From Desulfobacteraceae bacterium (GTDB lineage Bacteria; Desulfobacterota; Desulfobacteria; Desulfobacterales; Desulfosarcinaceae), in the NCBI GenBank assembly GCA_003599575.1, contig QZKV01000133.1, forward strand, positions 62,001-126,000: a DNA stretch of 64,000 nt, in the 5' to 3' direction. The translations under genes and the position numbers were made by a program. The notes below the pieces were generated by a model, which worked only from the letters and a program-made list of their open reading frames with translations, was not told the origin of the DNA and made no database searches. Below are positions 16,188 to 48,078 of the stretch, piece after piece. Position 1 is the first letter of the stretch. Each line of letters opens with the position of its first letter.

Positions 16188-18425
16188 ATGACGGAACCTG
16201 TTGACGAGAATGCACCGACCCTGCTGCGTTACCTGGAACCCCTAGATTCGGGGCTGCGGTTCTGCCTGTTCACCGATGGCGGAGCGCCGGGCGTACAAGA
16301 CGCGCCCCTGGAAGCGTTCGAGGGCGCCGGTCCTTATGCCGGACTGTTGGCCGGTACCGTCGGCGCAGACCGCGAGCTCCCCGTGGGTGAAATTTTCTTT
16401 TTGATCCAGCTGGATCATTACCGTGTCAGCCCGGGCGAACTGCTGCCGGTGACCAATCCACAGATTGACCAGCTTTGGCAGGCTGGATTCAAGCGGCTGC
16501 GCGGGCAGAGGTACGATAATTTCTCTGCTGTGCTGCCGGAGCAGGTCGATGCCGAAGGTCAGCTCCTGCCGCTGCGCCCGCTTTTTCACTGCCGCAGCAA
16601 AAACCGCTTCGGTCATGCTTTATGCCCCCATTGCGGGGGCGGCCTGGACCTTTGTCGCGATGATCGATTGCTCAAGGTTTGGGGATTGCCGGGCTACAGC
16701 GACAGCCTGGAACGCTACCTGTTTTGCCCGGCCTGCCGCCAGGCCGGTAGAGACCCGTCTTTCTACGCCCGGGTCGCACCGGCCGAAAGCCCGGCCCACC
16801 TGCATGATGGCGATCACCTGGTGCAGTCTTTCGGCCGGCTGCTTGCACGGCAGGATCTGGCCGGCGATCTGCCTTGCATCGGCTGCGATGCGGCCGGCGA
16901 CTGCTATGGTCCCCGGACTTTGGTGCGCGAGCGCCTGCGGCCCCTGTTTTTCTATCCTTTTTATATGCTGATGCAGCCGGAGCCCTCGATCAACGCCCTG
17001 GATTTTTTGGAACTGCTCTCCGGAGTGGCCTTTGAGGCGGTCGTCCAAAAGGCGGCCCGGCAGCAGAAGGGGGGCCGGGCGAGAAAATTACATCAGCATC
17101 GGGAACTGCTTGCATCGGCCGACAGGTACCTGTTTCCCAAGGGCGCCCGCCTCTTCGGCGAAGTGCTCTATTTGAAATTGACCCTGCTCGATGAACTGGT
17201 CGCGTTGAGCATCCGCACGCCGGAAATTTTGGACGAACCGGCCGCTTGCATGTCCCTGGAAAGCTTTTGGGTGCATCTGCCGGTTCAAACCACGCGCTTG
17301 CCGCTGTTCTGGAATTTTTCATTGCGCATGGTCGATGCGGTCGGACGGCCCGGGTACGATGCCCTGAAGGGCGTTCTGCCCCAGGCGCGCCTGCGGCATT
17401 TTCTGGGCAGCGCCTGGTTTTACACTCTGCTGGTCAATGACCGGCAGGGCATGGCCGTTGTGCAAAACGCCCTGGAGCAGCTTTTATCCGATGCGGCTGC
17501 CATTGCGCGTCTCACGCAAGGTGACGGAAATTCTATCGACGCCAAATTTTCAGCCGCTAACCTCGTTTTGCAAGATGGCCTCCCTCCGGCCGGCCCCCAA
17601 TGGGAAGCATTATGGCGGCGCGCGCTGGCTTTGGGTCTGGAGCTGATGCCATCGGCTCGATTAACGGCTGCGGCCTGGAGCGCCGACGACTTCCGCTCGC
17701 GCCTCGATGCGCTTCGCCGCGACGTTTATGATTTTCTTTTTTGTGAACCGCCCGCCGCGGAAACGCTCGCAAGATCAACGGCCGAAACACAGAAAGAAGC
17801 CGTGCCCGCGCATGATGCGGCCGATGCACAGATCGCCCGTATACTGCAAACCATCCTTAAGCAGTGGCCGTCCTGCGCTTCCGAATCACCGCAGGCAACG
17901 GAAACCGCTGTGAATGTCGCACCGCCGTCCGGGAAGCCCAGCGCGGGCGCACTTCCCAATGAGGACGGGGATTACCAGGAGACGGTCATCTTGGGGCCTG
18001 ACATCCCGCTTGCGCAGAATGAAGCCGTGCCTTCAAAAGACCCGCAGGAAGACTTGGAACAGACCGTATGGATGGGACCGGCGTCATCCAATAAGCGTCC
18101 CGATCAGCCGCCCGGGGGGTTGGAGGCGACCGTCATCATCTCCACTCGACCGGATGATAGCAAACCGCCGGCCGCACCACCAGAATTGGAGAAAACGGTC
18201 ATTTTGGGCCAACCGGCTTCCGGCAGCGCGGGCGGTGATTTGGAAGAGACCATCATCATGAGCCCTGGGGCAATGCCCCGGCCGCCGGCCCCACCGGTTC
18301 CCCCCAAAACACCACATCGATCCGGAGGTGGCGCAAACCCGCCGTCCCCGCCGGAAAACCTGGAGCAAACGGTCATTATTCGTCCCGATTTGGTGAAGAA
18401 CAGGAAACCCGGCCATGATCAATGA
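16188..18425 (+). CDS. T6SS-linked zinc-finger protein with six LExTVI motifs
   Basis: A 745-residue protein of no family I recognise. The N-terminal third contains a zinc-ribbon-like set of cysteines: CPHCGGGLDLC, then CPAC, and a further CIGCDAAGDC. A long alpha-helical middle part follows. The last about 150 residues are low-complexity, rich in Pro, and carry six copies of a short motif: YQETVILGP, LEQTVWMGP, LEATVIIST, LEKTVILGQ, LEETIIMSP and LEQTVIIRP. Each has a threonine followed at +3 by Leu, Met or Ile, resembling pThr ligands of FHA domains. It heads the T6SS operon and overlaps the next gene by 11 bases. The start is uncertain: ATG 16188 is preferred, GTG 16143 would add 15 residues. 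Confidence 0.75.
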   Translation: MTEPVDENAPTLLRYLEPLDSGLRFCLFTDGGAPGVQDAPLEAFEGAGPYAGLLAGTVGADRELPVGEIFFLIQLDHYRVSPGELLPVTNPQIDQLWQAGFKRLRGQRYDNFSAVLPEQVDAEGQLLPLRPLFHCRSKNRFGHALCPHCGGGLDLCRDDRLLKVWGLPGYSDSLERYLFCPACRQAGRDPSFYARVAPAESPAHLHDGDHLVQSFGRLLARQDLAGDLPCIGCDAAGDCYGPRTLVRERLRPLFFYPFYMLMQPEPSINALDFLELLSGVAFEAVVQKAARQQKGGRARKLHQHRELLASADRYLFPKGARLFGEVLYLKLTLLDELVALSIRTPEILDEPAACMSLESFWVHLPVQTTRLPLFWNFSLRMVDAVGRPGYDALKGVLPQARLRHFLGSAWFYTLLVNDRQGMAVVQNALEQLLSDAAAIARLTQGDGNSIDAKFSAANLVLQDGLPPAGPQWEALWRRALALGLELMPSARLTAAAWSADDFRSRLDALRRDVYDFLFCEPPAAETLARSTAETQKEAVPAHDAADAQIARILQTILKQWPSCASESPQATETAVNVAPPSGKPSAGALPNEDGDYQETVILGPDIPLAQNEAVPSKDPQEDLEQTVWMGPASSNKRPDQPPGGLEATVIISTRPDDSKPPAAPPELEKTVILGQPASGSAGGDLEETIIMSPGAMPRPPAPPVPPKTPHRSGGGANPPSPPENLEQTVIIRPDLVKNRKPGHDQ

Positions 18426-19134
18426 AACCTTGCCCGCCCGGTTGGCCGACGATATTCGCCGTATCTATTCCGCCGATCCGTCCAATGCGCCGCAGGCCAT
18501 CGAATCGCACTTGAAAGCAAGCTTGGCTGATTATCCAACTGCTGAAGGCCGCGCCGCGGTTCAAGAGGTCCTGAAAAAATTTGTCCCCGGCGACGGGCAT
18601 GTTCCGGTCGCTGATAAACAGGTGCTGACCCGCGTGTTCAGTCTGCTGCTGGGCCGCAAGGTGACTCCCGATGATATTTCTTCGGGTGAAGTGATTGAGC
18701 GGCTGGCACAGTCGTTGAACACCATCTTCAATGCCCTCAACCGCCTGATCAGCGTCATCAACATGACTTTTTCAGGCGGCGCCCGCCAGGGCGAACAGAC
18801 CATCCGGCAATTTATCGGGTTTCATCTGGGAGGCGAGGATCAAACCCAATCTCTGGAAGCCTATTTGGGACGCATCAATGATGCGTTTCTCATTACCCAG
18901 GAGGCGTTCAAGAAGGCGGGCCAGACCAAAGTCGAGCAGATTTTGCAGGCGCTTGAAATGGACAAACGTACCGAACGTTCCAGTGTCTTGAAAATCGGAC
19001 CGTTGCGCAAGGCGGAAGACTTCGATATTCTCAAGGAGAAAATCGAGCGGATCAGACGCTGGTTCGATTCGGGGCGTTTCATGGAAGATTACCTGAGAGA
19101 ATTTGAAAAGAATTGTCAGACGCTTACGCCATGA
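18415..19134 (+). CDS. T6SS-associated protein of unknown function
   Basis: A 239-residue mostly helical soluble protein starting 11 bases before the end of the preceding gene, so the two are translationally linked. No domain is confidently recognised. Its layout (a central SLEAYLGRINDAFLITQEAF segment, then GPLRKAEDFDILKEK and a C-terminal WFDSGRFMEDYLREFEKNC) loosely recalls the C-terminal region of T6SS FHA-domain proteins (TagH/Fha), but there is no FHA domain and the resemblance is weak. Since no Fha or PpkA gene lies in this locus, a part in T6SS regulation or assembly at the Fha position is a reasonable guess only. Confidence 0.7.
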   Translation: MINETLPARLADDIRRIYSADPSNAPQAIESHLKASLADYPTAEGRAAVQEVLKKFVPGDGHVPVADKQVLTRVFSLLLGRKVTPDDISSGEVIERLAQSLNTIFNALNRLISVINMTFSGGARQGEQTIRQFIGFHLGGEDQTQSLEAYLGRINDAFLITQEAFKKAGQTKVEQILQALEMDKRTERSSVLKIGPLRKAEDFDILKEKIERIRRWFDSGRFMEDYLREFEKNCQTLTP

Positions 19135-19150
19135 TGAGGAGGTCGTTTCG

Positions 19151-19669
19151 ATGATCTATAGACTCTTGTCCGCCATTTGCGCAGCACTTCTGATCAGCGG
19201 TTGCGCTTCACAACCCACGCCTCCGCCGGAGTGGGGGTATGAAAAAGATGCCGTCCAGATTCATTTGAAGGCCGATGCCAAGCTGAACCTGGATGACAAC
19301 GTACCGCATACCCTGGTGTTGTGCATTTATCAGCTCAGGGACCCGAACACGTTCAACCAGTTGTCCGACGACACCGAAGGAATCTACAAGTTGCTGGAGT
19401 GCAACCTTTTCGATGGCAGTGTGGCCACTGCCAAACGGATCATCGTGCACCCCGGTCAGGATATGACCGTCAAACTGGACCGCGCCGAAGGGGCTAAATA
19501 TGTAGCCGTGGCGGCCGGTTACTACGTGCTGCAAAAGAGCCGTATGGTCCGGCTGTACGATATCCCGGTCGTCGTCGAGACCAAAGGATTGGTCAAAAAG
19601 ACGACCATTTCCAAGCCCGGCACGCTGGTTATCGACCTTGACCTGGGACCTTCGCAGATCAGATCCTAG
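19151..19669 (+). CDS. tssJ: T6SS outer-membrane lipoprotein TssJ
   Basis: A 172-residue protein with a short lipoprotein signal peptide ending in the lipobox LISGC (Cys18). TssJ is anchored in the inner leaflet of the outer membrane and binds the periplasmic domain of TssM in the membrane complex. The mature part is beta-rich, transthyretin-like, with the family's YQLRDPNTFNQL region. The ATG at 19151 is chosen over the upstream in-frame ATG at 19103 because AGGAGG (19137-19142) precedes it by eight bases and it places the lipobox correctly. A 187-base gap without a gene separates it from tssK. Confidence 0.88.
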   Translation: MIYRLLSAICAALLISGCASQPTPPPEWGYEKDAVQIHLKADAKLNLDDNVPHTLVLCIYQLRDPNTFNQLSDDTEGIYKLLECNLFDGSVATAKRIIVHPGQDMTVKLDRAEGAKYVAVAAGYYVLQKSRMVRLYDIPVVVETKGLVKKTTISKPGTLVIDLDLGPSQIRS

Positions 19670-19856: not shown

Positions 19857-21245
19857 ATGATGGAAAAACCGCTCTTCTGGCATCAAGGGTTATTTCTACA
19901 GCCACAGCACCTGCAGCTCGAAAGTCGCTATCACGAGACTTTGAACTTTCCGCTGAAGCAATATCTGCAACCGCACTTCTGGGGTGTCGTTCACTACGAG
20001 GTGGGCAAGTCGGCCCTCGGCAATCGCAGCTTTCATCTGACGGAAGGACGTTTTCTTTTTCCCGACATGACCTACGTGGAAGTCCCGGGCAATGCGGTGG
20101 TCATGCCGCGTTCTTTTGAAGCCGCTTGGGAAAAGGGCAGCCAGCAATTCGGTGTTTATATCGGCTTGCGCAAATTCAGCACGACCGGCCGCAATGTCAG
20201 CGTGGTGACCGGCGACCCTAATATCTTCGATGTCAACACCCGCTGGATGACCGCCAACACGGCCGAACAGGTGCCGGATCTTCACCGCGACGGACCGGCC
20301 GCCGATGTGCAAAAACTCTCCTATGTACTGAAGATTTTCTGGGAGTCGGAGAAACACCAGCTTGGCGATTACGATCTGATCCCGCTGGCCAAACTGGAGC
20401 GGGAACAGGATCAGGTGCGATTGTCGGCCCAATTTGTGCCGCCCTGCCTTTGCGTGGGAGCCGATGAGACCCTGTTCAAAATCATCAAAGAGATCCGCGA
20501 CCAGATCGGCGCACGCAGCCGCCAATTGGAAGCCTACAAGCGTGATCGCGGACTTCATTCCGCCGAATTCGGCGCGCGCGACATGGTCTACCTCCTGGCC
20601 TTGCGGTCATTGAACCGATATGCCGCCTTGCTGAACCATTACACAGCCGTCCGTACCGTGCATCCGTGGGTTGTTTACGGGCTGCTCAGCCAGCTGATCG
20701 GAGAGCTTTCGACTTTTTCGGGCGATATTTCCTTTACGGGAGAGGCGCTGGACGGGCAGCGCTGGCTGCTGGAGTACGAGCATGCCGCCCCGGGCCCCTG
20801 TTTCGCGTCCGCTCTGTCGCTGATCACCCGGCTGCTTGACCAGATTACCGCCGGGCCGGAATATATACTGCCGCTGATGTTCGACGGCACCTATTTCGGT
20901 ACCGATCTGCCGCCCGCGGTATTCGAGGGACGCAATCGCTTCTACCTCATGCTGGAAACCGAATCCGATCCGCAGTCGGTGCTGGGCGCCGTTGAGCGCA
21001 TCGCCAAACTGGGCAGCCGTGAAACACTGCCCCTGTTGATCGCCCGCTCGCTTTCCGGTGTCAGCATGCAACACCTTTCTGCGCCGCCGCAAGAGCTGCC
21101 GCGGCGCAGTCATGCATCCTATTTCCAGATCGATCACCATGGCGATCAGTGGGCCCAGGTGCAGAAGGGGAAAAATCTGGCCTTGTACTGGGACACGGCC
21201 CCCGAAGACCTGAAAGTCGAACTGATGGTCGTGGGAAGGAGTTAA
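19857..21245 (+). CDS. tssK: T6SS baseplate protein TssK
   Basis: A 462-residue TssK (ImpJ/VasE), about the usual length. The N-terminus PLFWHQGLFLQPQHLQ is the family signature. TssK is a trimeric cytoplasmic adaptor that links the TssFG wedge of the baseplate to the TssL/TssM membrane complex, and resembles phage receptor-binding proteins. Two adjacent ATG codons (19857, 19860) follow AAGGA; either may be used. The gene is followed after seven bases by tssL, the standard tssJ-K-L-M order. Confidence 0.95.
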   Translation: MMEKPLFWHQGLFLQPQHLQLESRYHETLNFPLKQYLQPHFWGVVHYEVGKSALGNRSFHLTEGRFLFPDMTYVEVPGNAVVMPRSFEAAWEKGSQQFGVYIGLRKFSTTGRNVSVVTGDPNIFDVNTRWMTANTAEQVPDLHRDGPAADVQKLSYVLKIFWESEKHQLGDYDLIPLAKLEREQDQVRLSAQFVPPCLCVGADETLFKIIKEIRDQIGARSRQLEAYKRDRGLHSAEFGARDMVYLLALRSLNRYAALLNHYTAVRTVHPWVVYGLLSQLIGELSTFSGDISFTGEALDGQRWLLEYEHAAPGPCFASALSLITRLLDQITAGPEYILPLMFDGTYFGTDLPPAVFEGRNRFYLMLETESDPQSVLGAVERIAKLGSRETLPLLIARSLSGVSMQHLSAPPQELPRRSHASYFQIDHHGDQWAQVQKGKNLALYWDTAPEDLKVELMVVGRS

Positions 21246-21252
21246 GGCTGTC

Positions 21253-21930
21253 ATGCGGTTAACCGATTGTTTCATGGAGATGATCGCTTATACGGCCCTG
21301 GTCGTATACAAAGAGGGCGGAAAGCAGCTTTCCTACGAACAGATGCGCGCCAATATGCAGCGTTTGATCCGCCAAAGTGAAGCCTGTACGGAGAAAGGGC
21401 GCTTTTCCCAGGAAGACTACAATCTCGCCCGCTTCGCCGTTTTTGCCTGGGTGGACGAAGCCATCCTTTCTTCCCAATGGCAAGGACGCCAGCAATGGCA
21501 GCGGGAGCAGTTGCAGCGGCAATATTTTCAATCCGCCGATGCCGGTGAGTTGTTTTTCGAACGCCTCAATGTCCTCGGACCGCATCAGCGCGACGTGCGC
21601 GAAGTGTACTATCTGTGCCTGGCCCTGGGCTTTACCGGTCAGTACTGCCATGCGGGGGACGACTTACTGCTGGAGCAACTGCGCACCTCCAATCTGAAGT
21701 ATCTCACCGGCAGTTCCGTGGGCCTGCCTTCATTGGAAAAAGAAGAAATCTTTCCGGAAGCCTATCCCGCGGGACAGGCCGGCCCGCATGCCATGCCGGT
21801 CAAGGGGGTGCGCTGGTCCTGGTTCACACCGGCGTGTGCCGCTGCGCCGGTGGTTTTGTACGTTGTTTTGTTTCTGATCTATAAATTCATCCTCGGCAGT
21901 ATCGGGGGAACGCTCATGGGTACGGTATAG
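21253..21930 (+). CDS. tssL: T6SS inner-membrane protein TssL (DotU/IcmH-like)
   Basis: A 225-residue TssL. The N-terminal cytoplasmic helical domain is followed by a single membrane anchor near residues 190-216 (TPACAAAPVVLYVVLFLIYK), so it is a tail-anchored protein. It lacks the C-terminal OmpA-like peptidoglycan-binding domain present in extended TssL proteins; cell-wall anchoring would need another protein. With TssM and TssJ it forms the trans-envelope complex and contacts TssK. The tssM start follows three bases after its stop. Confidence 0.92.
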   Translation: MRLTDCFMEMIAYTALVVYKEGGKQLSYEQMRANMQRLIRQSEACTEKGRFSQEDYNLARFAVFAWVDEAILSSQWQGRQQWQREQLQRQYFQSADAGELFFERLNVLGPHQRDVREVYYLCLALGFTGQYCHAGDDLLLEQLRTSNLKYLTGSSVGLPSLEKEEIFPEAYPAGQAGPHAMPVKGVRWSWFTPACAAAPVVLYVVLFLIYKFILGSIGGTLMGTV

Positions 21931-21933
21931 CAG

Positions 21934-24900
21934 ATGAAACAGATCTTGCGAACGGCTTTGAAAGTGTTATTGCTTCTGACCTTGCTGGCCCTGGGACTGC
22001 TGTTGCTGTTCGGCCTGATGATGTGGATCGGCTGGCCCTGGTGGGTCGGTTTCTTCGTGCTCATCGGCTTGCTGGGTCTTACACTGGGGGTGGTTGCGGC
22101 ACGCAAGGTCTGGGCGCGGCGTCGCGAGCAGATGTTTGTCCACCAGGTCATCGCCCAAGATGAAGACATGTACAAGCGCATGGCGCCCAAAGAACAGGAT
22201 GCGGCCAAGGAACTCCGCGCCCGCTGGACCGAGGCGATCGATGCACTGCGCAAATCGCACCTGCGCAAGTCCGGCAATCCGCTTTACGTGCTTCCCTGGT
22301 ATATGGTCATCGGGGAGAGCGGATCGGGCAAAACCACCGCCATTCAAAGCGCACGGCTGTCTTCGCCTTTTGCCGATATGAGCAGAACTTCGGGAATCTC
22401 AGGGACCCGCAATTGCGATTGGTGGTTTTTCGAACAGGCGATCATCATCGATACGGCCGGCCGGTATGCGTTGCCGGTGGACCAGGGGCGCGACAAGGCA
22501 GAATGGCAGGACTTTCTGACCCTGCTGGCCAAATATCGTAAAAAAGAGCCTTTGAACGGCCTGGTCGTCACGCTTGCAGCCGACCGCCTGAATCAGGCAA
22601 CACCGGAAGCGCTCCAGGAAGACGGCCGCAATATCCGCAAACGTATTGAGGAGGTCACGCGCGTATTGGGCGCCCGCTCGCCGGTATACGTGATGGTGAC
22701 CAAGTGCGATTTGATTCAAGGCGCAACGCAATTCTGCGATCTGATGCCCGAAAACGCTTTGAACCAGGCCATGGGTTTTTTGAACCGGGAATCGAGTGCC
22801 GATGCGGCCGGGGTGATCGAAAAAGCCGTTCGCACGGTGGGCGACCGCCTGCGCGACTTACGGCTGATTTTGCTGCACCGCGCCAAAGAGCGTGGCGAGG
22901 CCGCGGGCATGCTGCTGTTCCCCGAAGAACTGGAAAAATTGCAAGAAGGTTTAAGCGCCTTTGCCACGAGCACCTTCCAGCAGAATCCCTACCAGGAAAC
23001 GCCTTTGCTGCGCGGCATCTTCTTCAGCAGCGGACGGCAGGAAGGCACGCCCTTTTCCCACTTTCTCAGCGCGCTGGGGTTGATTCAAGAGCGTGAAGTG
23101 TTGCGCGGCACAAATCGGGGACTTTTTCTGCACGACTTTTTTGCCAAAATTCTACCCGCCGACCGGTATTTGTTCAAGCCGACCCAGCATATGCAGGAGT
23201 GGCGGACGCTCACGCGCAACCTTGGGCTGACCGCCTGGATCGCTTTCATGGTGGCGGTATGCGGTTTGCTCAGTTACACGTTTATTAAAAATCTGAACGC
23301 CATGTCGGATGTGCGCAGGGAGTTTCAGAAACCGGCCCTGTTGCAGGGAGAACTTCTGGCCGACATCATTACCATGGATCGCTTCCGCGAGTCCGTCCTC
23401 CAGGTCGAAGAGCAAAACCGCAACTGGTGGGTTCCGCGCCTATGGCTCGACGATAGCATCGACGTGGAAAAAGGACTAAAGCAAAAGTATGTCGCTCTTT
23501 TTCAGAATGGTTTTATGCAGGGTTTCGACAAAACCCTGGGCGACCGGCTGACGACGTTCGGGGCGGGCGTTCCCAGTGGGGAATTCGGCGCCCACGTGGC
23601 GCTTCTGGTGCGGCGGATCAATTTGCTCAAAGCGCGCTTGGCACAGGAAGATTTGGCCCGCCTGGGCGCTCATCCGCAGCCCGCCTACGATTCATCCGTT
23701 CTCGGGCGAAGCGAGGTGATTCCCGAGGTGCAGAAAAAGCTGGCCGTCGCCTACCTGTATGCCGTTGCCTGGGACCAAGACAGCAGCCGGCTGAACAACG
23801 AGCTGACCGCCCTGCAAACCTTGCTTAAACACCTGCTCACCCTGCCCGGGATAAAGCTCGACTGGCTGGCGGATTGGGTCAGCAGCGATCCCGCGCTATC
23901 AATGGTGACCCTGGCCGATTTTTGGGGCGGCCAAGCGGGCATTGATTCGCCTTCCATTCCCGCAGCTTTCACGCGTGCGGGCAAAGCCAAAATGGATACG
24001 GCTATGGCGGAGATCGAATCGGCCCTGTTCGATCCTTTGATCATCGGCAGCGCCAAGCTGGCCTTTGCCAAATGGTACGACCAACGCTACTTCGAAGCTT
24101 GGCAGAAGTTTGCGCAGTCCTTTGAAAATGGCGGGTCCCAACTCAAGGACAAAGAACAATGGCAAATCGTTGCCAAGCGCCTGCCGACGGACAAGGGGCC
24201 GTTTATAGGATTGATCCGGCGCATTGAAGAAGAGTTCCGGACCTTCAATCCGGAAGCAGCCGTACCATCCTGGGTGGGACTGGTTTACAATTGGGAGGAA
24301 GTGCGCCAGGAAGCCCGGAACACCTCGCCGGCCGACCTGGAAAATCCCGGTTTGATCCAAAAGGCCACCAGCAAAGTGAGCAGCAAAATCAAAAGCGCCG
24401 AACGTGCTTTGGGTGTCAAGGTGCGGGTTTCCATGGAACCTGCAGCGCAGCTCAATGCCGCCAAAGCGATGCACGCCTATCAAACGGCGCTGGATGCGAC
24501 GGTGAAAGCCACCGAGTCGCGCAAAGTGGCTTTCGAAATGGCTTCGGCCTTATACCAGCAGGATCCGGCCACGGGTGAATCTCCCTTCTTAAAAGCGCAG
24601 CGCGCCCTCGATGATCTCAAGGCCATCATGGCCGATCGGCAGGACGACAGTGAAGCCCTGTTCTGGGCGCTTATCGACGGTAATTTGCATTTCATGCAGC
24701 AATATGTCAGCCGCGAGGCGGCTTGTCACCTTCAAACCTTATGGAAGGACAATGTGCTCACGGAGCTTCAGGATGTGAGCACGGACAGGGACATCGCCCA
24801 GATCATGATGGGCAGCGATGGGCTGGCCACTCAATTTATCAAGGGGCCCGCCGGCCCCTTCATCGGTCGCAGTTTGGCCAAAGGGTATTATGCCAAGGAG

Positions 24901-25422
24901 ACGTTGGGTTTGGCGGTGCCGATGAATACGGACTTTATGGCCTATTTGAGCCAAAGCGCTCAAGCTGCGCGGCCCACCAAAAGCAGCTACAGCGTCCAGA
25001 TCCGTGCCTATCCGACCGACGCCAACCGGGATGCCCAATTGCAGCCCCATTCAACCGTGCTGGAGCTGCAGTGTGCCAACGGCAGCACGCGGCTGGAAAA
25101 TCTGAACTATCCTGTATCCAAAACATTTGTCTGGTCTCCGGGCAATTGCGGGGATGTGACCTTCCAAATCGCCGTGGGCAACCTGTTGCTCACCCGGCGC
25201 TATACCGGCCAGCATGCGTTTGCCAAGTTTCTGCATGATTTCAAGACTGGACAATACACCTTCAGCCGTAATGATTTTCCCAGTGATGAAGCCGCCTTAA
25301 ATCGCATGGGCATAAAATACATAAAGGCCAAGTACCAGTTTCAAGGGCAAAACGAGGTCCTTTCGCTGCTGTACAGCGCCCCCGGCAGCCCACCCAGAAA
25401 GATTGCAGCGTGCTGGGATTAG
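21934..25422 (+). CDS. tssM: T6SS membrane-complex protein TssM (IcmF)
   Basis: An 1162-residue TssM with two N-terminal membrane helices (about residues 7-56), a cytoplasmic NTPase-like domain with an intact Walker A motif GESGSGKTT near residues 127-135 and a DTAGR motif near residue 173, a third membrane helix at about 430-453, and a large periplasmic part that binds TssJ. Length and layout are typical. Presence of the full Walker A suggests this TssM may bind nucleotide, which not all homologues do. The last 13 bases overlap tagF. Confidence 0.95.
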   Translation: MKQILRTALKVLLLLTLLALGLLLLFGLMMWIGWPWWVGFFVLIGLLGLTLGVVAARKVWARRREQMFVHQVIAQDEDMYKRMAPKEQDAAKELRARWTEAIDALRKSHLRKSGNPLYVLPWYMVIGESGSGKTTAIQSARLSSPFADMSRTSGISGTRNCDWWFFEQAIIIDTAGRYALPVDQGRDKAEWQDFLTLLAKYRKKEPLNGLVVTLAADRLNQATPEALQEDGRNIRKRIEEVTRVLGARSPVYVMVTKCDLIQGATQFCDLMPENALNQAMGFLNRESSADAAGVIEKAVRTVGDRLRDLRLILLHRAKERGEAAGMLLFPEELEKLQEGLSAFATSTFQQNPYQETPLLRGIFFSSGRQEGTPFSHFLSALGLIQEREVLRGTNRGLFLHDFFAKILPADRYLFKPTQHMQEWRTLTRNLGLTAWIAFMVAVCGLLSYTFIKNLNAMSDVRREFQKPALLQGELLADIITMDRFRESVLQVEEQNRNWWVPRLWLDDSIDVEKGLKQKYVALFQNGFMQGFDKTLGDRLTTFGAGVPSGEFGAHVALLVRRINLLKARLAQEDLARLGAHPQPAYDSSVLGRSEVIPEVQKKLAVAYLYAVAWDQDSSRLNNELTALQTLLKHLLTLPGIKLDWLADWVSSDPALSMVTLADFWGGQAGIDSPSIPAAFTRAGKAKMDTAMAEIESALFDPLIIGSAKLAFAKWYDQRYFEAWQKFAQSFENGGSQLKDKEQWQIVAKRLPTDKGPFIGLIRRIEEEFRTFNPEAAVPSWVGLVYNWEEVRQEARNTSPADLENPGLIQKATSKVSSKIKSAERALGVKVRVSMEPAAQLNAAKAMHAYQTALDATVKATESRKVAFEMASALYQQDPATGESPFLKAQRALDDLKAIMADRQDDSEALFWALIDGNLHFMQQYVSREAACHLQTLWKDNVLTELQDVSTDRDIAQIMMGSDGLATQFIKGPAGPFIGRSLAKGYYAKETLGLAVPMNTDFMAYLSQSAQAARPTKSSYSVQIRAYPTDANRDAQLQPHSTVLELQCANGSTRLENLNYPVSKTFVWSPGNCGDVTFQIAVGNLLLTRRYTGQHAFAKFLHDFKTGQYTFSRNDFPSDEAALNRMGIKYIKAKYQFQGQNEVLSLLYSAPGSPPRKIAACWD

Positions 25423-26147
25423 GCCATCATAACCACCTTTGGCGTTGGAAGGCCTCGGGCAAGCACCCGGTGGCCAACGATTACATCGATGTGCAAAACG
25501 GCACGCCGCTGACGGATGCCGTGGCCGATTGGATGACCAAGGGGTATGTCGAACTGCAGCACAAGGGGCTTTCTACCAAGGCGGCGTACTCCTGGCGGTT
25601 CTGGCTGCGGGCCGCCAAAAAAGGCGCTCTGATCTGCGGTTTGGCCCGCGACAGCAGCGATCATATCGGAAGGCCTTTTCCGTTGCTGATCGCGGGAGAG
25701 GGGCCGGTTAAAAATTGGGAGGAGCGCTGGGCATTGTTGCCCGCTCTTCTATCCAAAACCTGGGGACGCATCGAGCGCATTGCCGCCAAAAGGTATGATG
25801 ATTTACGGGGACTTTCCGATGAGATAGGCCAATTGGGAGCGCCGGAGAACGATCACGATATTAACGAGACCGAAGGTGGTGAACGCGGCGACGCGCTTTC
25901 AGATGATCATTTGAACACTTATCGGACCGATTGGCAGCGGACCGGCCGGATCGTGATTGCCCTGAACAACCTGCAAAACGGAGCGGATCCTGCGGAAACG
26001 GCCTTGCAGTGTCACCGCCATTTATGGGCGTGCTGTCCGGAAATTCCTCGCGCTGTCTTTTGGGGCGGTACTGTTCAGCAGGCGCACCTGGTTGTCTTTC
26101 GCCAACCGCTAGCGATCGACGATTTCGTGGCTTTGTGGAGCCTGTGA
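25410..26147 (+). CDS. tagF: T6SS-associated regulator TagF
   Basis: A 245-residue TagF-family protein (DUF2094). Typical elements are the N-terminal GASGKLP-like segment, here WKASGKHPVANDYIDV, a conserved RDSSDHIGRPFPLLI motif and a WALLPALL segment. In Pseudomonas TagF represses T6SS post-translationally, acting through the FHA protein and in parallel with the PpkA/PppA threonine-phosphorylation pathway. Here the PppA domain is not fused and no fha gene is seen nearby, so its partner may be the 16188 or 18415 product or be encoded elsewhere. It starts at GTG 25410 within the end of tssM. Confidence 0.87.
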   Translation: MLGLGHHNHLWRWKASGKHPVANDYIDVQNGTPLTDAVADWMTKGYVELQHKGLSTKAAYSWRFWLRAAKKGALICGLARDSSDHIGRPFPLLIAGEGPVKNWEERWALLPALLSKTWGRIERIAAKRYDDLRGLSDEIGQLGAPENDHDINETEGGERGDALSDDHLNTYRTDWQRTGRIVIALNNLQNGADPAETALQCHRHLWACCPEIPRAVFWGGTVQQAHLVVFRQPLAIDDFVALWSL

Positions 26148-38826: not shown

Positions 38827-40392
38827 ATGAACGAAACCAAGGGTTTTCATGCGGTCGAGGTTGTGCTCTCCACCAATCTGGAAACAAAGCTTGAAAAACC
38901 GCAGCCTGGTACTCCCTTCAAAATACTTGTCATGGGCGATTTCAGCGGGCGGGCAGAAAAAGAACCTGGTTTGCAAAGGGTGGATTTGGCCGAGCGCAAG
39001 TTGTACTCCATCGACCGCGACTCGGACGAGGCGGTCTTGGCAAAACTGGGTGCGTGCCTTCGCCTGCCGGCAGCCGGCGAACATAGGCCGGCCATTGAAT
39101 TGCAATTCGGGGAGATGGATGATTTCCAACCCGATCAGATTTACTCCCAGGCCGATATCTTTAAAGCATTGAGGGAGGTCCGCAAGAAAATCAGTGATCC
39201 AAATACCTTTTCCCAAACAGCCGCCCGGCTGCTGGGCCAGTCAAGCGCAGCCGAAAGGCGCGAGGACAATCCCGTGCACCCGCGGGAGGCAGAAGGCGGG
39301 CGCAATCATGCAACAAATACGGCCGGTCTCTTGGATGATGTGCTGAATGCCGGTTCGGAAGCCGTGCATGCTCCAGTGTCTTCCCGGCGATCGGATTGGG
39401 ACCGGTTTTTGGGCAATCTCGTGCGGCCCCACCTGGTGCCGGACATTGAACAGGAACAGGAAGAGTTACTCAGCGGCATCGACCGCACAATTTCCGCAAC
39501 CATGGCCGATATCCTTCACCATCCCCGGTTCCAATCCCTGGAAGCGGCCTGGCGGGCCATGCGGTTTCTGCTCCGGCGCCTGGAAACCGATGAAAATCTT
39601 CAAGTCTATTTGCTGGATATCAGCAAGCCCGAGTTAGCCGCAGTCTTGGCAGAAGATAAACATCCACAAAGCACGGCGTTGTATCGAAAACTGGCCGAAT
39701 TCTCCGATCAGCGTATCGGTGAGGCGCCTTGGGCTTTGCTTGCCGGCAACTATATGTTTGAAAAGAGCCCGGATGATCTCCGGCTGCTGACCAGGTTGGG
39801 TGATCTGGGCCGGCTTTTGGGGGCGCCTTTCATCGGCGCCGGCGGCCTCAGCCTTATTGGATGCGGTTGCCTGGATGATCTATGCGCGCCGGCCAACTGG
39901 CGAGCCGCCTCTGAACCAGAGGTCGAAAACGCCTGGAGAACCCTGCGCACCTCACCTCAGGCCCGCTGGCTTGGCCTGGCCCTGGGCCGTTTTTTGCTGC
40001 GCCTGCCCTATGGGGAAAAAACCGATGAGGTGGCATACTTTGCTTTTGAAGAGACCGGTGCGGCGCCGGCGCACGAACACTACCTGTGGGGCAATCCGGT
40101 CTTTGCCTGCGCCCTGCTGCTGGGAATGGCTCACACCCGCGATGGCTGGGATATGCGTCCTGGAACGGTGCAGGATATCGATCACCTGCCCACGCATGTC
40201 TTTGTGCACGACGGTGAATCCATAGTCAAGCCCTGCGCTGAAGTGGTCTTGACCGTCGAGGCAGTGGAGCAGATTTTAAATTCAGGGCTGATGCCCCTGC
40301 TGTCGTTCAAGGGACAGGATCGTGTCCGTCTGGCGCGTTTTCAATCCATTGCAGATCCCGTTACCCGAATGGCCGGACGGTGGCCTGCGTGA
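38827..40392 (+). CDS. Fused TssB/TssC-like sheath paralogue
   Basis: A 521-residue protein. Residues 25-115 resemble TssB (FKILVMGDFSGR, then an EMDDFQPDQIY segment). After a poorly conserved linker of about 70 residues, residues from about 190 resemble TssC: LHHPRFQSLEAAWRAMRFLL against HHQDFQKLEGSWRGLHYLV in the true TssC, and HEHYLWGNPVFACALLL against YLWGNAAYALGTRL. The frame stops at a point corresponding to about 110 residues before the TssC end, so the C-terminal block that contributes to inter-subunit strand exchange is absent. It may cap, nucleate or modulate the sheath. GGAG lies seven bases before the ATG, after the tandem repeat. Confidence 0.85.
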   Translation: MNETKGFHAVEVVLSTNLETKLEKPQPGTPFKILVMGDFSGRAEKEPGLQRVDLAERKLYSIDRDSDEAVLAKLGACLRLPAAGEHRPAIELQFGEMDDFQPDQIYSQADIFKALREVRKKISDPNTFSQTAARLLGQSSAAERREDNPVHPREAEGGRNHATNTAGLLDDVLNAGSEAVHAPVSSRRSDWDRFLGNLVRPHLVPDIEQEQEELLSGIDRTISATMADILHHPRFQSLEAAWRAMRFLLRRLETDENLQVYLLDISKPELAAVLAEDKHPQSTALYRKLAEFSDQRIGEAPWALLAGNYMFEKSPDDLRLLTRLGDLGRLLGAPFIGAGGLSLIGCGCLDDLCAPANWRAASEPEVENAWRTLRTSPQARWLGLALGRFLLRLPYGEKTDEVAYFAFEETGAAPAHEHYLWGNPVFACALLLGMAHTRDGWDMRPGTVQDIDHLPTHVFVHDGESIVKPCAEVVLTVEAVEQILNSGLMPLLSFKGQDRVRLARFQSIADPVTRMAGRWPA

Positions 40393-42724: not shown

Positions 42725-43495
42725 TTAATCTATCTTTTTCCATATATCGGAGGAAAATTGTACCATAGGATGGTCTCGCAAGGCCTCGGGGATTTGAGAA
42801 TAGTTAGTACTCAGTTTAAAGGATTTTAACTCCGCGAGTTTCAGCAAAGATAGACCTTCGGTAGAAAAATATCGAGACCAGGACCAAATATCTTCCCCAA
42901 TGGCTTCGCTATCTATCATTTTCTCTATTCTTTCCGACCTCTCAATCAAAAACTGTCCGAAATGTTCATTGAATTGAGCGGAATTATTTTTTAGAAAAGC
43001 CCTACAAATACCTATCCGAGTATCACTAGTACCCTCGATAACCTTCTCATAATCGGCTAATATGTTTTTGCAAATTTCTTGGGAATCTGAATCATTATTA
43101 AAAAAATGATTGGTAAGAAAAAAGATATAGAGGAAATCATCTTCATATTCATAGTCGAAATTACAACTTGTCCTTGAGTGTCGGGCCATTTCATCGGCAC
43201 AATCCCACAAACCACAATTGATTGCGTCAAAAAAGGGGGCGCTTTCAGATGTCACCTTGTCTTCAAGTCTGCTGTTTTGTAAAAAAAACAGATAACTCGC
43301 AGCGCTGTGATGCAGGCAATTGAAAAAGACATGCGTTTGACCGGATAAAAAAAAGTGGCAGGCGCCTTTTTGGCGGTATGCGAGACTCAAAGCTAAAGCG
43401 ATCTCTCGTTCAGGCTTTGCAAGCAACTTTGCAGTTAATCTTATTATATCTGATTCGGCATTATCCAAATAGGAGGATAGATATTCAGAGGTCAT
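42725..43495 (-). CDS. Probable immunity protein (Imm49-like)
   Basis: A 256-residue, largely helical cytoplasmic protein without signal peptide. It is the last gene of the minus-strand effector operon, two bases after the Imm11-type gene. Size, the helical pattern with ALALSLAYRQKGACHFFLSG, and position fit Imm49-type immunity proteins, but the match is by general resemblance and not by a sharp motif. It is AT-rich compared with the T6SS core. It may protect against the nuclease encoded upstream, or be an orphan immunity gene against a related toxin. Confidence 0.5.
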   Translation of the reverse strand: MTSEYLSSYLDNAESDIIRLTAKLLAKPEREIALALSLAYRQKGACHFFLSGQTHVFFNCLHHSAASYLFFLQNSRLEDKVTSESAPFFDAINCGLWDCADEMARHSRTSCNFDYEYEDDFLYIFFLTNHFFNNDSDSQEICKNILADYEKVIEGTSDTRIGICRAFLKNNSAQFNEHFGQFLIERSERIEKMIDSEAIGEDIWSWSRYFSTEGLSLLKLAELKSFKLSTNYSQIPEALRDHPMVQFSSDIWKKID

Positions 43496-43497
43496 TA

Positions 43498-44079
43498 TTA
43501 TACCTGTTCAGCCTTATCGAATGCGAAGTTAGTATATTTCTCTGTTAATGCTTTAACCAAGGTATTGGACAAGGCGAACATTGCTAAGTCATTAATGCGA
43601 ATTAGATCAGGGGCCTTTTTCAATTTTTTATTATTCAAAACAATTCGGTCAACGCCAATCACAGTGCCATTACTATCTCTATCTATTTCGCTTTCATCGA
43701 AATCAAGCGCATCATATTGTTCTACAGGACAGACAAAACTATATTCTCGGGAATGAATTCGTCCTTTGTGATTAATAAGTGTGAATGGCCAATATTCGAC
43801 ATCACCAATAGAAAAATTCTTTAGCTCTTCTACTACCTTTTTGTCAACCATGAAATAACACTCAGTAGTGCTAATAAAAGAGCCTTGTTTGATGTGTTTG
43901 GGATGATCCGCATCAAGATACATTTTGACATCAAAAGGATTCTTGGGATAAATATTCTTTAGTGAACCTCCGTAATCCAATCTAAGATCAGGATCTTCTA
44001 ATCCTTCGGGTTGGCAAGTTGTTAAACAAAACTTTTCATTATCCGACTGCCCTAAGCTATCCAGAATGAAATATTGCAT
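43498..44079 (-). CDS. Imm11/DUF1629-type immunity protein
   Basis: A 193-residue protein. The C-terminal half has the DUF1629/Imm11 pattern: a GRIHSREYSFVCPVEQYDAL segment, then DFDESEIDRDSNGTVIGVDRI and a LIRINDLAMFALSNTL region. These proteins are immunity factors in polymorphic toxin and T6SS loci, commonly next to nuclease toxins. It lies 27 bases after the toxin gene on the same strand and two bases before the Imm49-like gene, so it is the best candidate for the cognate immunity protein. It should act in the cytoplasm. Confidence 0.72.
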   Translation of the reverse strand: MQYFILDSLGQSDNEKFCLTTCQPEGLEDPDLRLDYGGSLKNIYPKNPFDVKMYLDADHPKHIKQGSFISTTECYFMVDKKVVEELKNFSIGDVEYWPFTLINHKGRIHSREYSFVCPVEQYDALDFDESEIDRDSNGTVIGVDRIVLNNKKLKKAPDLIRINDLAMFALSNTLVKALTEKYTNFAFDKAEQV

Positions 44080-44106
44080 AAAACACTCCTGCGAGAATAG
44101 AGAAGA

Positions 44107-45069
44107 TTATTTAATATCATTAATCTTTATTACCTCTTTATTTTTTGAGAGTTTTTTATTTGATGTCACCGTATCGATGATTTTATTATACCATTTTTCA
44201 GAAATTTTCTTTAATTGTTTCTCTACTGAAATCGGATCAGGCTTTTGGTGTCCTGGTTTGTGATTTGCGTTGATTTTTTTATATCCAGATAGGGCTTTAT
44301 TAACTTCTTTAAGAATTCTATTACTATAAGATAGGTGTGATCCATGCGTCGGTAAGCCCGTTATTCTTGTGTCTTTTTCCTTTGTCGGCAGTATTATCGC
44401 GTTGTTTTTATGGTTAATATTATACAACTCTTTAAGTAAGCCCTGTGCGACAACATCGGGAATATTTTTAAAAGCGGAGATCGCTTTGTAAAGAGAACTA
44501 TGATTAAGTACATGATGAACCTGGTTAGGCCATGGCACAGAAGCAATAGTGAAGTTTAAAAACCAATACTTCTTGTATTCAACATATACCTCATTTTTAT
44601 TGAAAATCTTATAATTTCTCTCTTTCTTTGTTTCTTTATCTATTGTTTTCGGGACGTCTGTTCGCCATTGTACTGGATTTCCTTTTTTATCACGTATAAT
44701 ATCTTTCATGATATCAATTTTTTCATTCTCAATGACATTGCCCTTTTCATCAACTACTTCAACGTCTACTTTTCCATTAACTGCAATATTTCTTCGCGTT
44801 CCTCGTTTACTAAAAGCAGCTATAATGCGAGGCGCCTCTTGGCCCGTTTCATTATCTAAATGAGCGATACAAGGGATATTTTCGTTATTGTAAATATCCA
44901 AGTGTGAACGAGCTGCTTCTCTGCCTTGATATCTGTAAGAACATGTAATTGTATCATAATTAGTAGTGCAACGTCCGCTTAGACAGGCACCGCCTTCTGT
45001 GCCTTTTTTTTCCTTAAGATGTAGATGTTGAAATTCAGCGGAGGCAATGTGATTTGTGTCCTCAGACAT
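44107..45069 (-). CDS. AHH-type nuclease toxin, T6SS effector
   Basis: A 320-residue protein. The C-terminal domain has the order expected of the AHH family (HNH/Endo VII superfamily): NQVHHVLNHSSLYKAI with His185-His186, then INHKNNAIILPTK around residues 218-230, then PTHGSHLSYSNRI with His242 and His245. The usual AHH triplet reads VHH here. The first about 100 residues include several cysteines (CLSGRCTTNYDTITC) and match no trafficking domain I know. It lies downstream of a PAAR-like protein and a ketosynthase-fold protein and directly before two immunity genes. Predicted action is DNA or RNA cleavage in a target cell. Confidence 0.75.
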   Translation of the reverse strand: MSEDTNHIASAEFQHLHLKEKKGTEGGACLSGRCTTNYDTITCSYRYQGREAARSHLDIYNNENIPCIAHLDNETGQEAPRIIAAFSKRGTRRNIAVNGKVDVEVVDEKGNVIENEKIDIMKDIIRDKKGNPVQWRTDVPKTIDKETKKERNYKIFNKNEVYVEYKKYWFLNFTIASVPWPNQVHHVLNHSSLYKAISAFKNIPDVVAQGLLKELYNINHKNNAIILPTKEKDTRITGLPTHGSHLSYSNRILKEVNKALSGYKKINANHKPGHQKPDPISVEKQLKKISEKWYNKIIDTVTSNKKLSKNKEVIKINDIK

Positions 45070-45083
45070 GCGCTCTTACTCCG

Positions 45084-46196
45084 TTAGTTTGTCTGGGTCA
45101 GCGTGGCCAATAGAGCGCCAACGTACCCATAAGGTGAACTGGCCGTTATCAAGGCTACATTATATTGTGAGTAGTGGCGTCGATGGCTTTCGATGGCCAC
45201 ACACAAATTGCAAAGGGAGTTGGCGGTCCCAATATCCCCTATTGCAGCTGAAACTATGACTGTCAACGCTCTGGCATCAAGTAAATTTTTCGGTGTTTTT
45301 ATTTGAGCATGAGAATATTCAATGGATCGCCAATTCTCACCGTTTATATCGAGATACAAAGTGCCTGTGTATGGTTTGTTTAATTGGGCGGCCGATAGTG
45401 TTTCAATTAACGACTCGCTTAATCCTATTCCAGTGTTATGCTCTTGAGTCTCGTCATTATAGAAATAGTTTTTTTCGAATTTTTTGCTGAAATTGTTTAT
45501 AAAAGCAAACCTATTTGCATCGCTTCGCTGTGCTGACCTTTCACTTTCCAATAAAATGGCAGCAGCCGCCTCGCCAGGAACCAAACCCGTCGGGTTGTTG
45601 CTATTTTTTAACTGACCTCTCGCATTCAACCACCATAATGAATAGGGGTCGATGTTGGAATCAGCGGCAAGTAGAATTATCCGGTCAACATCAGATCTAT
45701 TATGAAGTAATTCATTTGCCAGATAACAGGCACTCATCGTTCCAGGATTATCCTCTGAAATTAGAAAGCTGTTTTCTAATTTGACAGGCAGTTTGGATTG
45801 CCGGATAAATGGTACAACGTAAAAATTCTTTACATTGTTTTCATTAACCACACCAGCTAAATCAAAACGGGCCGCATTCAGTACCGGCGTTATAAATATA
45901 ATAGCGGTTTTCAGCCAGAATGTCGCATCTTCTTTTGCAGGCAAATTGGAATAGTTGATGAGATCATTCAACGCACATTTTCCCATCGTAAGCCATCTTC
46001 CAATGCTACTAAAACCGTCAGTAATGCCTGCCACTGGGTAACCGGTCAAGGGTTCCGCCTTGTGACTCTCCTCATCCATTACGTAATAATGGCTGATTTC
46101 TTTGGGTCTAGTAATGCCAGCCCTTATGGATGCACATGATGTGCGAACGTCATGCCCCACTGCGGTAACTAATCCTATGCCGGTGACAATTAGCAT
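45084..46196 (-). CDS. Ketosynthase-fold protein of T6SS effector loci, probably non-catalytic
   Basis: A 370-residue thiolase-fold protein. The N-terminus VTGIGLVTAVGHDVRTSCAS is that of beta-ketoacyl synthases, and PTGLVPGEAAAAILLE matches their PGE(G/A)A segment. Where condensing enzymes have the DTACSSS nucleophile elbow, this protein reads NPGTMSACYLANELL, with no cysteine at the expected place by eye, and the later catalytic histidine motifs are not apparent. Such proteins recur beside DUF4150 and toxin genes and are presumed to help load or fold effectors. It lies between the PAAR-like gene and the toxin. Confidence 0.72.
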   Translation of the reverse strand: MLIVTGIGLVTAVGHDVRTSCASIRAGITRPKEISHYYVMDEESHKAEPLTGYPVAGITDGFSSIGRWLTMGKCALNDLINYSNLPAKEDATFWLKTAIIFITPVLNAARFDLAGVVNENNVKNFYVVPFIRQSKLPVKLENSFLISEDNPGTMSACYLANELLHNRSDVDRIILLAADSNIDPYSLWWLNARGQLKNSNNPTGLVPGEAAAAILLESERSAQRSDANRFAFINNFSKKFEKNYFYNDETQEHNTGIGLSESLIETLSAAQLNKPYTGTLYLDINGENWRSIEYSHAQIKTPKNLLDARALTVIVSAAIGDIGTANSLCNLCVAIESHRRHYSQYNVALITASSPYGYVGALLATLTQTN

Positions 46197-46217
46197 CTTG
46201 TATTTACATGCCTTTAG

Positions 46218-46676
46218 CTAAAATTTCTTGTCACAAATCAAACAAACCGGCTTCAGCTCCGGCATAATCACAACAATCGGCGGCTGAAGCACTGGAAACG
46301 GCGGCGTGTTTTTATCGTTGTGCAGCATCAAATCAAATGCCCTGGGCACGTTCTTGCCTTCGATTTTCACGTCAAAGGAGTAGTTGATGAATTCGGCCTT
46401 GCCGCTGGTCTTGCTGGAAGCCACGCCCTTGAGGGCGCCGGCTTCATCGCCCATGCTGGTCTTGAAGTTCGAATCCTTAAGGCAAACCGGGTTGCCGTCG
46501 ATTTTGACCTTTTTACTGCCCTTGTCTGTGTCGCTGGACTTGGCGATGTTGGGATAGGGGATGGGCACCACGGCCGGTCCGCACTGGGTTTTGCACAGGT
46601 CCGGAAAGGCGATGGAAATCCCACCGCTGTCTTTATGGACCACGGATAGTTTGTTGACGCCAACGGTTACGCCCAT
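46218..46676 (-). CDS. PAAR-like (DUF4150) spike-tip protein
   Basis: A 152-residue DUF4150/Tox-PAAR-like protein. Typical elements are the N-terminal DSGGISIAFPDLCKTQCGP and VPIPYPNIAKSSDTDKGSKK, then a GDEAGALKGVASSKTSGKAEF region. These proteins cap the VgrG beta-helix in the manner of PAAR proteins and recruit effectors. No toxin is fused to it, so the nuclease must be carried non-covalently, probably with help from the ketosynthase-fold, DUF2169 and DUF6484-type proteins. It is the only PAAR-class protein in the window. Confidence 0.85.
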   Translation of the reverse strand: MGVTVGVNKLSVVHKDSGGISIAFPDLCKTQCGPAVVPIPYPNIAKSSDTDKGSKKVKIDGNPVCLKDSNFKTSMGDEAGALKGVASSKTSGKAEFINYSFDVKIEGKNVPRAFDLMLHNDKNTPPFPVLQPPIVVIMPELKPVCLICDKKF

Positions 46677-46729
46677 GGCTTTTCCTCATGGATTGGGTAC
46701 GTAAAATCAGGCTTTATGGTCATTGACAA

Positions 46730-48076
46730 CTATTTTTTGTGCTCCATTCCAGCCTTGGAATTTTGAATATCCATTAACAGTTTTCTCTGCATGGAGACCG
46801 GAAGATCCGTTTCAAAAGGCAAATTGTTTCCGCTTTTAATCACCCATTCCTCATGGGCCAGTTTGCGTACCACATGGGGGCTATTTTCAGACAACAGATT
46901 TTCAATGATACTCGCCTTGGAAAATGGTTTTCCGTTGCGATAACACAGCGAGGGGTCAAATCGTTTGGAATTGTCCTGCCACCATTTTTGCCAGGCGTCC
47001 GGGTTTCTCGAAAGCTGAATTACACGTGCGCCGTGCGGTTCGCTGTTTTCGTTCAGAGGTTCACCCTTTTTCACTTTTTCAACCTCATCTTCAAAGAGCG
47101 TATCCTCGTCTATTTCTTCAGGTATAAAGACCTCTTCGTAAAGATCTGCGCCCGTGATTAGATTCAGAGAAATGGCGGCTATATTGCCGGATTGCTCATC
47201 AAGAAGGCTGTCCACCAGGATGGGGATGGATGACATATCACCCAAAAAGCCTAAGCAAAGGAGCAGGTTGGGCGATTTTACGCGTTTATAATAAAGGTCG
47301 TGAAGGATGGGAACATGTTCTTTATTGCCAGCAATACCGATCAGGATAAAAGGCCATTCTTTTTCCCGCGCGGTCTTCAACAAATTCCCGAGTATATTTA
47401 AGTGACCCATCCTTAATAGCGCCAATGATATCTCGTAGGCGATCTTGCCTTCAGCATCCTTAAGCAGGGTCAACAAAAGATCTTGAGCTCTTTTTTCTCC
47501 GAGACGACCGATCGCGTGGATTACTTCTGGCACAGGGTTGTTCTTTTTATCCTGCACTATTTTAAGCAACTCGTCCCCAAATGGGAGGCGTTTAAATGCT
47601 GCTACAGTAGCGGCGATCTTGATGAGATCAACTTCATCGAATAAAAGCATTTTTCGAATCAGGTCTTGCCATTCTGCGGGAAGCTCATGCTTTAATGCTT
47701 CGGTTATGCTTCTGATGCTATCATCATTGAGTTCGGCTTCTTCCAGGGCTTCCTGTAAATAGTCCAATCGCTTCTGGCGGCAAAAAACTCGAATAGCCGA
47801 ATGCAGTTCTCCGAAATCTCCTTCAGCTGCCCGCATGCGACAAACATCAAGGGCGAGGTCTTCACCTACGACGAGCGCATCGATATGGGCTTCCAATCTC
47901 TCTTCAAAATCTTCGATATCCGTCCAGGTGATTTGCGGGTCTTCGAAAAGCCCCAATCGCTGTTCGTAGAGGAATGATGACTCTTCCATATGCTCAAGGT
48001 AGAGGCCAACGTAGAAGCCCTTTTCCGAAGGGCCATCGGTAAGCACAGGTTTTTCAGTTCTTCTCGATTGATTCAT
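46730..48076 (-). CDS. HEAT-repeat protein (TIGR02270-like) of the T6SS effector operon
   Basis: A 448-residue soluble helical protein with HEAT-like repeats in the middle (for example PVPEVIHAIGRLGEKRAQDL and KIAYEISLALLRMGHLNIL). The C-terminal part has CYRNGKPFSKASIIENLL and a tail matching what I recall of the TIGR02270 family, which regularly sits next to DUF2169 and DUF4150 genes. A scaffold or chaperone role in effector loading is the working guess. It is separated from the DUF2169 gene by two bases and from the PAAR-like gene by 53. Confidence 0.68.
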   Translation of the reverse strand: MNQSRRTEKPVLTDGPSEKGFYVGLYLEHMEESSFLYEQRLGLFEDPQITWTDIEDFEERLEAHIDALVVGEDLALDVCRMRAAEGDFGELHSAIRVFCRQKRLDYLQEALEEAELNDDSIRSITEALKHELPAEWQDLIRKMLLFDEVDLIKIAATVAAFKRLPFGDELLKIVQDKKNNPVPEVIHAIGRLGEKRAQDLLLTLLKDAEGKIAYEISLALLRMGHLNILGNLLKTAREKEWPFILIGIAGNKEHVPILHDLYYKRVKSPNLLLCLGFLGDMSSIPILVDSLLDEQSGNIAAISLNLITGADLYEEVFIPEEIDEDTLFEDEVEKVKKGEPLNENSEPHGARVIQLSRNPDAWQKWWQDNSKRFDPSLCYRNGKPFSKASIIENLLSENSPHVVRKLAHEEWVIKSGNNLPFETDLPVSMQRKLLMDIQNSKAGMEHKK

Positions 48077-48078
48077 TG

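Follow-up and report, generated by a model that had tools for sequence, protein, structure and literature searches.

Post-translational control of the T6SS is, to our knowledge, known from few proteobacteria, in which it involves single phosphosites on Fha or TssL. In FHA switches of the OdhI/GarA type, Ser/Thr kinases phosphorylate a Thr residue with acidic flanks, and an FHA domain then reads it; one or two such sites lie on the FHA protein itself, and no multisite scaffold is known. For the T6SS threonine-phosphorylation pathway (PpkA, Fha/TagH and PppA), the excerpted texts of PMC10482370 and PMC3953482 give Fha itself or TssL as the phosphorylation target, with Fha binding pThr14 of TssL in A. 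tumefaciens (PMC3953482), and an excerpt of PMC5995506 reports that TagF binds Fha in two species. The pairing of a pseudokinase with FHA domains is described for type VIIb secretion, where EssB/YukC is the pseudokinase and EssC/YukB carries the FHA domains (PMC9436818, in excerpt). The locus described here probably encodes a rewired version of the Thr-phosphorylation pathway: a scaffold protein at a T6SS locus, ZRA, would carry the phospho-array within the operon, and the FHA reader would be supplied in trans. Paper searches of open-licence PMC text listed no description of a ZRA protein or of a bacterial multisite pThr–FHA array.

The ZRA–g2 pair in a T6SS operon

ZRA, a putative scaffold of 745 residues, is encoded at 16188..18425 on the plus strand of the window (the whole stretch of DNA analyzed, 64,000 nucleotides in length); the genes from g2 to TagF listed below lie on the same strand. 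Its body (residues 1–515; 16188..17732), predicted to have a protein-kinase fold and pseudokinase-like, contains a zinc-ribbon-like insert (residues 135–239; 16590..16904) and is followed by a helix (residues 541–559; 17808..17864) and then by a tail, predicted to be disordered, that carries the motif array. Downstream lie g2 (239 residues; 18415..19134) and, by Pfam matches, TssJ (19103..19669; PF12790), TssK (19857..21245; PF05936), TssL (DotU; 21253..21930; PF09850), TssM (IcmF; 21934..25422; PF14331), TagF (25410..26147; PF09867), ImpE/TagJ, TssA and TssB. A Pfam scan of the window's contig gave neither an FHA nor a Pkinase match, and PP2C was absent from the operon by the scans run. The first-pass annotation had described an operon with TagF and with no FHA or kinase gene; this stands for the contig and for TagF but not for the genome, which elsewhere has six FHA and eight Pkinase matches above cut-off, so that its proposal of FHA recruitment is left standing on this point.

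Two further features of the window are recorded here. A 521-residue protein (38827-40392, plus strand) matches VipA over residues 24–124 and then VipB over residues 213–507, and is a TssB–TssC-like fusion that exists alongside the separate TssB gene. Past VgrG, on the opposite strand, the stretch 42725-49089 (minus strand) holds genes for a DUF2169 protein and a HEAT-like protein along with several ORFs that match no Pfam family; these are possibly T6SS cargo genes.

The product of g2 appears to be related to the C-terminal domain of TagH (T6SS_FHA_C, PF20232), and no FHA domain was found in it. With E values of 1 or less allowed, PF20232 matches 20 of the 22 g2 proteins scanned, the lowest E being 2.1e-6, whereas the g2 of the window gives no match alone; an FHA domain is found neither among the matches listed (25 of 29 families, 22 members) nor for the window's member. 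No NCBIfam model matches g2, and a g2 profile weakly finds the TagH of one locus (L140; 20.4 bits). A scripted count over the 49 loci with enough sequence places g2 next after ZRA, in the same orientation, in 47; in the remaining two its stop-to-stop frame overlaps ZRA. Three genomes that have TssK but lack ZRA encode a full TagH (TIGR03354 above cut-off), either immediately upstream of TssK or at a distance of one gene. In P. aeruginosa H1, fha1 stands upstream of tssJ-K-L-M-tagF, and ZRA and g2 therefore seem to occupy the place of fha1/TagH upstream of TssJ–TssK; apparently, ZRA stands in for the usual FHA regulator at the T6SS locus.

A search with the single protein finds ZRA in 21 of 395 genomes of the phylum, the window's own included, all of which fall within the 44 genomes that have TssK. 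Scanning of contigs gave 42 named loci, mostly from Desulfobacterota-type MAGs and also from Nitrospirae, Candidatus Brocadia pituitae and Geobacter sp. OR-1. Fifty sequences were left once 10 exact duplicates had been removed; with the window's own added and three contig-truncated sequences (L123, L129 and L137) taken out, these became 48, and removal of eight at ≥70% identity left 40 tails. At one locus (L083:8767-11073, minus strand; genome G292), the motif tail and the ZRA body lie in different frames, a frame break that is either real or from assembly.

Subtracting the 21 ZRA genomes from the 44 with TssK leaves 23, of which 20 regions were read (G138, G145 and G302 were left out). They comprise five body-less arrays, two array pieces, three TagH genes and ten regions without array or g2, one of these ten (G310) spanning 2 kb and the array rescan having left out seven of the 20. 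In the five genomes with a body-less array, all of one genus (G237, G007, G045, G215 and G140), the frame ahead of g2 measures 130–178 codons from stop to stop and holds two or three clean motifs together with the helix, as a string like AIxxIL..I..KW; the zinc ribbon and body are absent from this frame, and no body match occurs among the ORFs listed there. The two array pieces (G272 and G355) lie at a contig edge beside g2. The g2 gene is present in all seven regions with a body-less array or array piece and, a weak TagH match aside, in none of the 13 other TssK regions read. Array and g2 occur together and the body can be lost; the body-less forms suggest that the array is the indispensable part. 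In G355 (L152:1976-2956, minus strand), two or three motifs and g2 share one open frame at the contig edge and are separated by a single undetermined residue, which makes this either a fusion or a gap.

With regard to the body itself, NCBIfam has no model that matches ZRA and Pfam gives only a sub-threshold DZR match (E 0.033), so membership in a known family was rejected; no ZRA was found in the plasmid collection. The zinc-ribbon domain that had been assigned ahead of the tail is consistent with nine Cys columns that are invariant in 35 sequences (135, 146, 149, 156, 180, 183, 230, 233 and 239), whereas its Pfam evidence stays at the level of that DZR match. The kinase fold of the body is predicted from VIA alignments of the modeled structure. 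Foldseek with ZRA returned nothing with E below 0.001, and kinase homology at the sequence level was rejected, hhalign against nine active kinases having given no match. HRD and DFG, kept in the active kinases compared, are absent among the conserved ZRA columns, residue equivalence between ZRA and kinases being not established.

Thr-specific conservation of the motif array

The tail contains the six motifs exactly as first described: YQETVILGP (Thr599; 17973..17999), LEQTVWMGP (Thr626; 18054..18080), LEATVIIST (Thr648; 18120..18146), LEKTVILGQ (Thr670; 18186..18212), LEETIIMSP (Thr688; 18240..18266) and LEQTVIIRP (Thr728; 18360..18386), all on the plus strand. The residue at +3 of the Thr is, in order, L, M, I, L, M and I, in keeping with the Ile, Leu or Met that had been noted there. 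The presumed disorder of the tail agrees with the AlphaFold prediction, in which residues 561–745 form a block of pLDDT 30–39. A tail of this kind, rich in Pro and Glu and predicted to be disordered, might carry repeats as a chance or neutral feature; however, 100,000 shuffles of the 185-residue tail gave at most two motifs each, against the six observed, which contradicts chance or low complexity as their source. The motifs are also conserved across 40 tails below 70% identity, and the array is retained where the body has been lost. Low-complexity drift is hardly credible.

In an alignment of 35 sequences, T648 and T728 are Thr in all 35 and T599 and T688 in 33; 27 of the 35 homologues have a gap in the T626 column and 30 in the T670 column, so that the number of repeats varies and their alignment is loose. 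The expectation that the motif Thr would be kept while the linkers drift is borne out at the first four of these positions. Tails have one to nine motifs (L074 having a single clean one) with a median spacing of 29, and in 38 of the 40 the last motif Thr lies 6–21 residues from the C-terminus.

Selectivity for Thr was assessed by a definition that makes no reference to it, in which all runs of at least three hydrophobic residues were taken and the residue before each was tabulated. Across the 40 non-redundant tails, the residue preceding the 200 such runs is Thr in 186 cases and Ser in one, and the count includes extra non-Thr runs because the regular-expression tail cut admitted body residues in L135 and L138. 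By comparison, the tails are 7.2% Thr and 7.4% Ser in composition. In the remaining ORFs of these loci, a set that retained 10 duplicate ZRA copies, the residue preceding a hydrophobic run is Thr in 7.3% and Ser in 7.4%. The logo of the 186 motifs approximates acidic-L-x-E-T-V-I-L/I, with D/E at −6 to −4, L at −3 (45%) and E at −1 (66%) on the N-terminal side, and V at +1 (73%), I at +2 (72%), S at +4 (45%) and P at +5 (49%) on the C-terminal side. Position +3 is L in 56%, I in 31%, V in 2%, M in 10% and F in 2% (L/I/V, 89%).

According to the excerpted text of PMC8786283, FHA domains strictly need pThr, and pTxx[I/L/V] is one of the two motifs given; both the use of Thr rather than Ser at the acceptor position and the I/L/V at +3 agree with this definition. 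For PknA-dependent sites in M. tuberculosis, the excerpt of PMC7164672 gives acidic residues at −1 and −3 to −6 together with Leu/Val at +3. As judged from sequence, the ZRA motif fits both the FHA-ligand pattern and this site preference of a bacterial Ser/Thr kinase. The repeats could instead be phosphorylation-independent short linear motifs, acting for example through addition of TVIL as a β-strand to a T6SS protein, with ZRA as a multivalent assembly scaffold or chaperone. Such a reading would suit the strong conservation of the hydrophobic V-I-L/I core itself, the tight tie of the array to a T6SS gene pair and the lack of an adjacent kinase in most loci; a plain strand motif, however, is not expected to demand Thr over Ser by 186 to 1, the acidic flank and +3 residue agree with kinase and FHA preferences, and a kinase or tandem-FHA gene is the immediate neighbor in 10 of 41 loci. 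We hold this explanation to be unlikely and retain that of phosphothreonine docking sites.

Motifs of this type were also looked for outside ZRA. A DNA pattern for the motif gave 89 sites genome-wide compared with 43 for a reversed control, the pattern being too loose for a conclusion. Among ORFs, the core motif occurs six times in 19,720 residues of FHA and kinase ORFs (52 ORFs) compared with 25 times in 311,723 residues of other ORFs, an excess that is no more than suggestive, the numbers being small and the loci partly picked for kinases or motif matches. One Ser/Thr kinase of the window's genome (L093:4681-6492, contig C123) has the strict motif EDLEKTVLLTP just ahead of its kinase domain and is, ZRA copies aside, the sole ORF with a strict motif in the loci read; this locus was chosen for its kinase. 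An FHA protein of the same genome (L089:15356-16075, contig C54) has the motif-like sequence ADQTMILNRDE in the linker past its FHA domain, and similar sites lie past the FHA domains in L038, L050 and L060.

Kinase, phosphatase and FHA genes

At 41 loci the sequence reaches 800 bases or more ahead of ZRA. The gene immediately preceding ZRA, in the same orientation, encodes a Ser/Thr kinase in eight of these and a tandem-FHA protein in two (L124 and L131), counts that include related pairs (L069/L071, L100/L102 and G331/G184); in the other 31, the window's included, neither a kinase nor an FHA gene is directly upstream. Eight of 20 genomes have an FHA match no more than 50 kb away from ZRA, relatives being among the eight, where 0.63 would be expected from uniform placement. 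FHA genes are present in 19 and kinase genes in all 20 of these genomes, and because such genes are so common there, their presence alone says little.

These counts also bear on the possibility that the array is Thr-phosphorylated but is read by something other than an FHA domain, serving as a charge switch or phosphatase sink, or binding to the pseudokinase body or to g2. That adjacent kinase genes are found in eight of the 41 loci and FHA genes in only two would suit such a reader, as would one genome (G093) that has ZRA with an adjacent kinase yet gives no FHA match. However, charge switches tolerate Ser, which is nearly absent from the ZRA motifs, tandem-FHA genes adjoin ZRA in L124 and L131 and lie inside the locus in L100 and L102, and the proximity of FHA genes in 8 of 20 genomes also speaks for an FHA reader. 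A non-FHA reader appears quite improbable, and an FHA domain is taken as the reader in what follows.

In the window's genome, a second contig (C98) encodes a membrane kinase of 539 residues, a PP2C phosphatase, a PEGA kinase and a tandem-FHA protein. When seven of the genome's eight own kinases were compared, the 539-residue kinase was the best own match of the ZRA-adjacent kinases in L112, L104, L100 and L102 (48–67% identity), and the PEGA kinase was the best own match, over the kinase domain, of the other four adjacent kinases. Relatives of the C98 PP2C, tandem-FHA, kinase and TPR-LysM genes stand upstream of ZRA in L100 and L102, and the body-less array of L144 has beside it genes related to the PEGA kinase and to the neighbor of that kinase. 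Because of these best matches and of the PP2C and tandem-FHA relatives near ZRA in other loci, C98 is the likeliest module to serve ZRA in this genome, an assignment from sequence comparison that falls short of proof.

The stretch of C98 that was read holds no T6SS core gene, and the idea that it is a second T6SS operon was dropped: one TPR match aside, the T6SS proteins of the window match nothing there. Directly ahead of the ZRA-adjacent kinase in three loci (L100:6828-7691, L102:7398-8264 and L112:7287-8153) is a gene for a protein of 287–288 residues with N-terminal hydrophobic segments, a CPLCG motif and a weak likeness to the kinase (35–41 bits), which is a possible co-sensor. The 287-residue version before the L100 kinase was considered as a PP2C and rejected, having no Pfam match.

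Proposed mechanism and relation to known systems

The reading of ZRA as a phosphothreonine docking scaffold is partly borne out, although the first-pass annotation had overlooked the predicted kinase fold of the body, the adjacent FHA-less relative of the TagH C-terminal domain and the kinase/PP2C/tandem-FHA module on C98. In the mechanism we propose, ZRA would combine its predicted pseudokinase-fold body and zinc-ribbon insert, through the helix, with a disordered tail of candidate phospho-acceptor motifs. The motif Thr residues would be phosphorylated by a membrane Ser/Thr kinase, most likely one on C98, and each pThr would then dock an FHA domain, most likely that of the tandem-FHA protein; PP2C would reset the array. 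The g2 protein would link this assembly to the T6SS machinery and may be a target of TagF, itself a possible ligand of g2, while the presence of several motifs could provide avidity or a threshold. Weighing against this mechanism are the 31 loci in which the gene next upstream is neither a kinase nor an FHA gene, the lack of an FHA match in G093, the single clean motif of L074 and the location of the C98 module on a separate contig. On balance, we favor the view that the locus amounts to a split TagH of reversed polarity, in which the operon contributes a pseudokinase-borne multisite pThr docking array and an FHA-less TagH C-terminal domain, the FHA reader comes in trans, and T6SS firing is multivalent and thresholded.

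If this is true, T6SS control has a variant that occurs in genomes of the Desulfobacterota type and of Nitrospirae, Candidatus Brocadia and Geobacter, two linked T6SS genes that lack annotation acquire a role, and bacteria provide a case of multivalent pThr/FHA signaling.

The type VIIb pair EssB/YukC and EssC/YukB has in common with ZRA that a secretion system couples a pseudokinase fold, predicted in the case of ZRA, to FHA domains; it differs in that these are membrane proteins of another system, without a motif array and with no phosphothreonine reported in the excerpt at hand. With TagH (TIGR03354; FHA plus T6SS_FHA_C), the locus shares the likeness of g2 to the C-terminal domain and the position of ZRA–g2 upstream of TssJ–TssK, where related T6SSs can carry TagH. 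By contrast, no FHA domain was found in g2, and the locus encodes an FHA-ligand-like array rather than an FHA reader; an FHA protein of TagH architecture, as found within T6SS operons, is not seen at the ZRA operon, whose contig has no FHA match. Another close system is the PpkA, Fha/TagH and PppA pathway, with which ZRA would share Thr phosphorylation, read by FHA, as the control of assembly, and with which its operon also has TagF in common. Unlike that pathway, the ZRA operon has no FHA or kinase gene but a dedicated multisite array protein, and its relative of the TagH C-terminal domain stands alone. We class the ZRA system as a variant of T6SS threonine-phosphorylation control and place it outside the TagH family.
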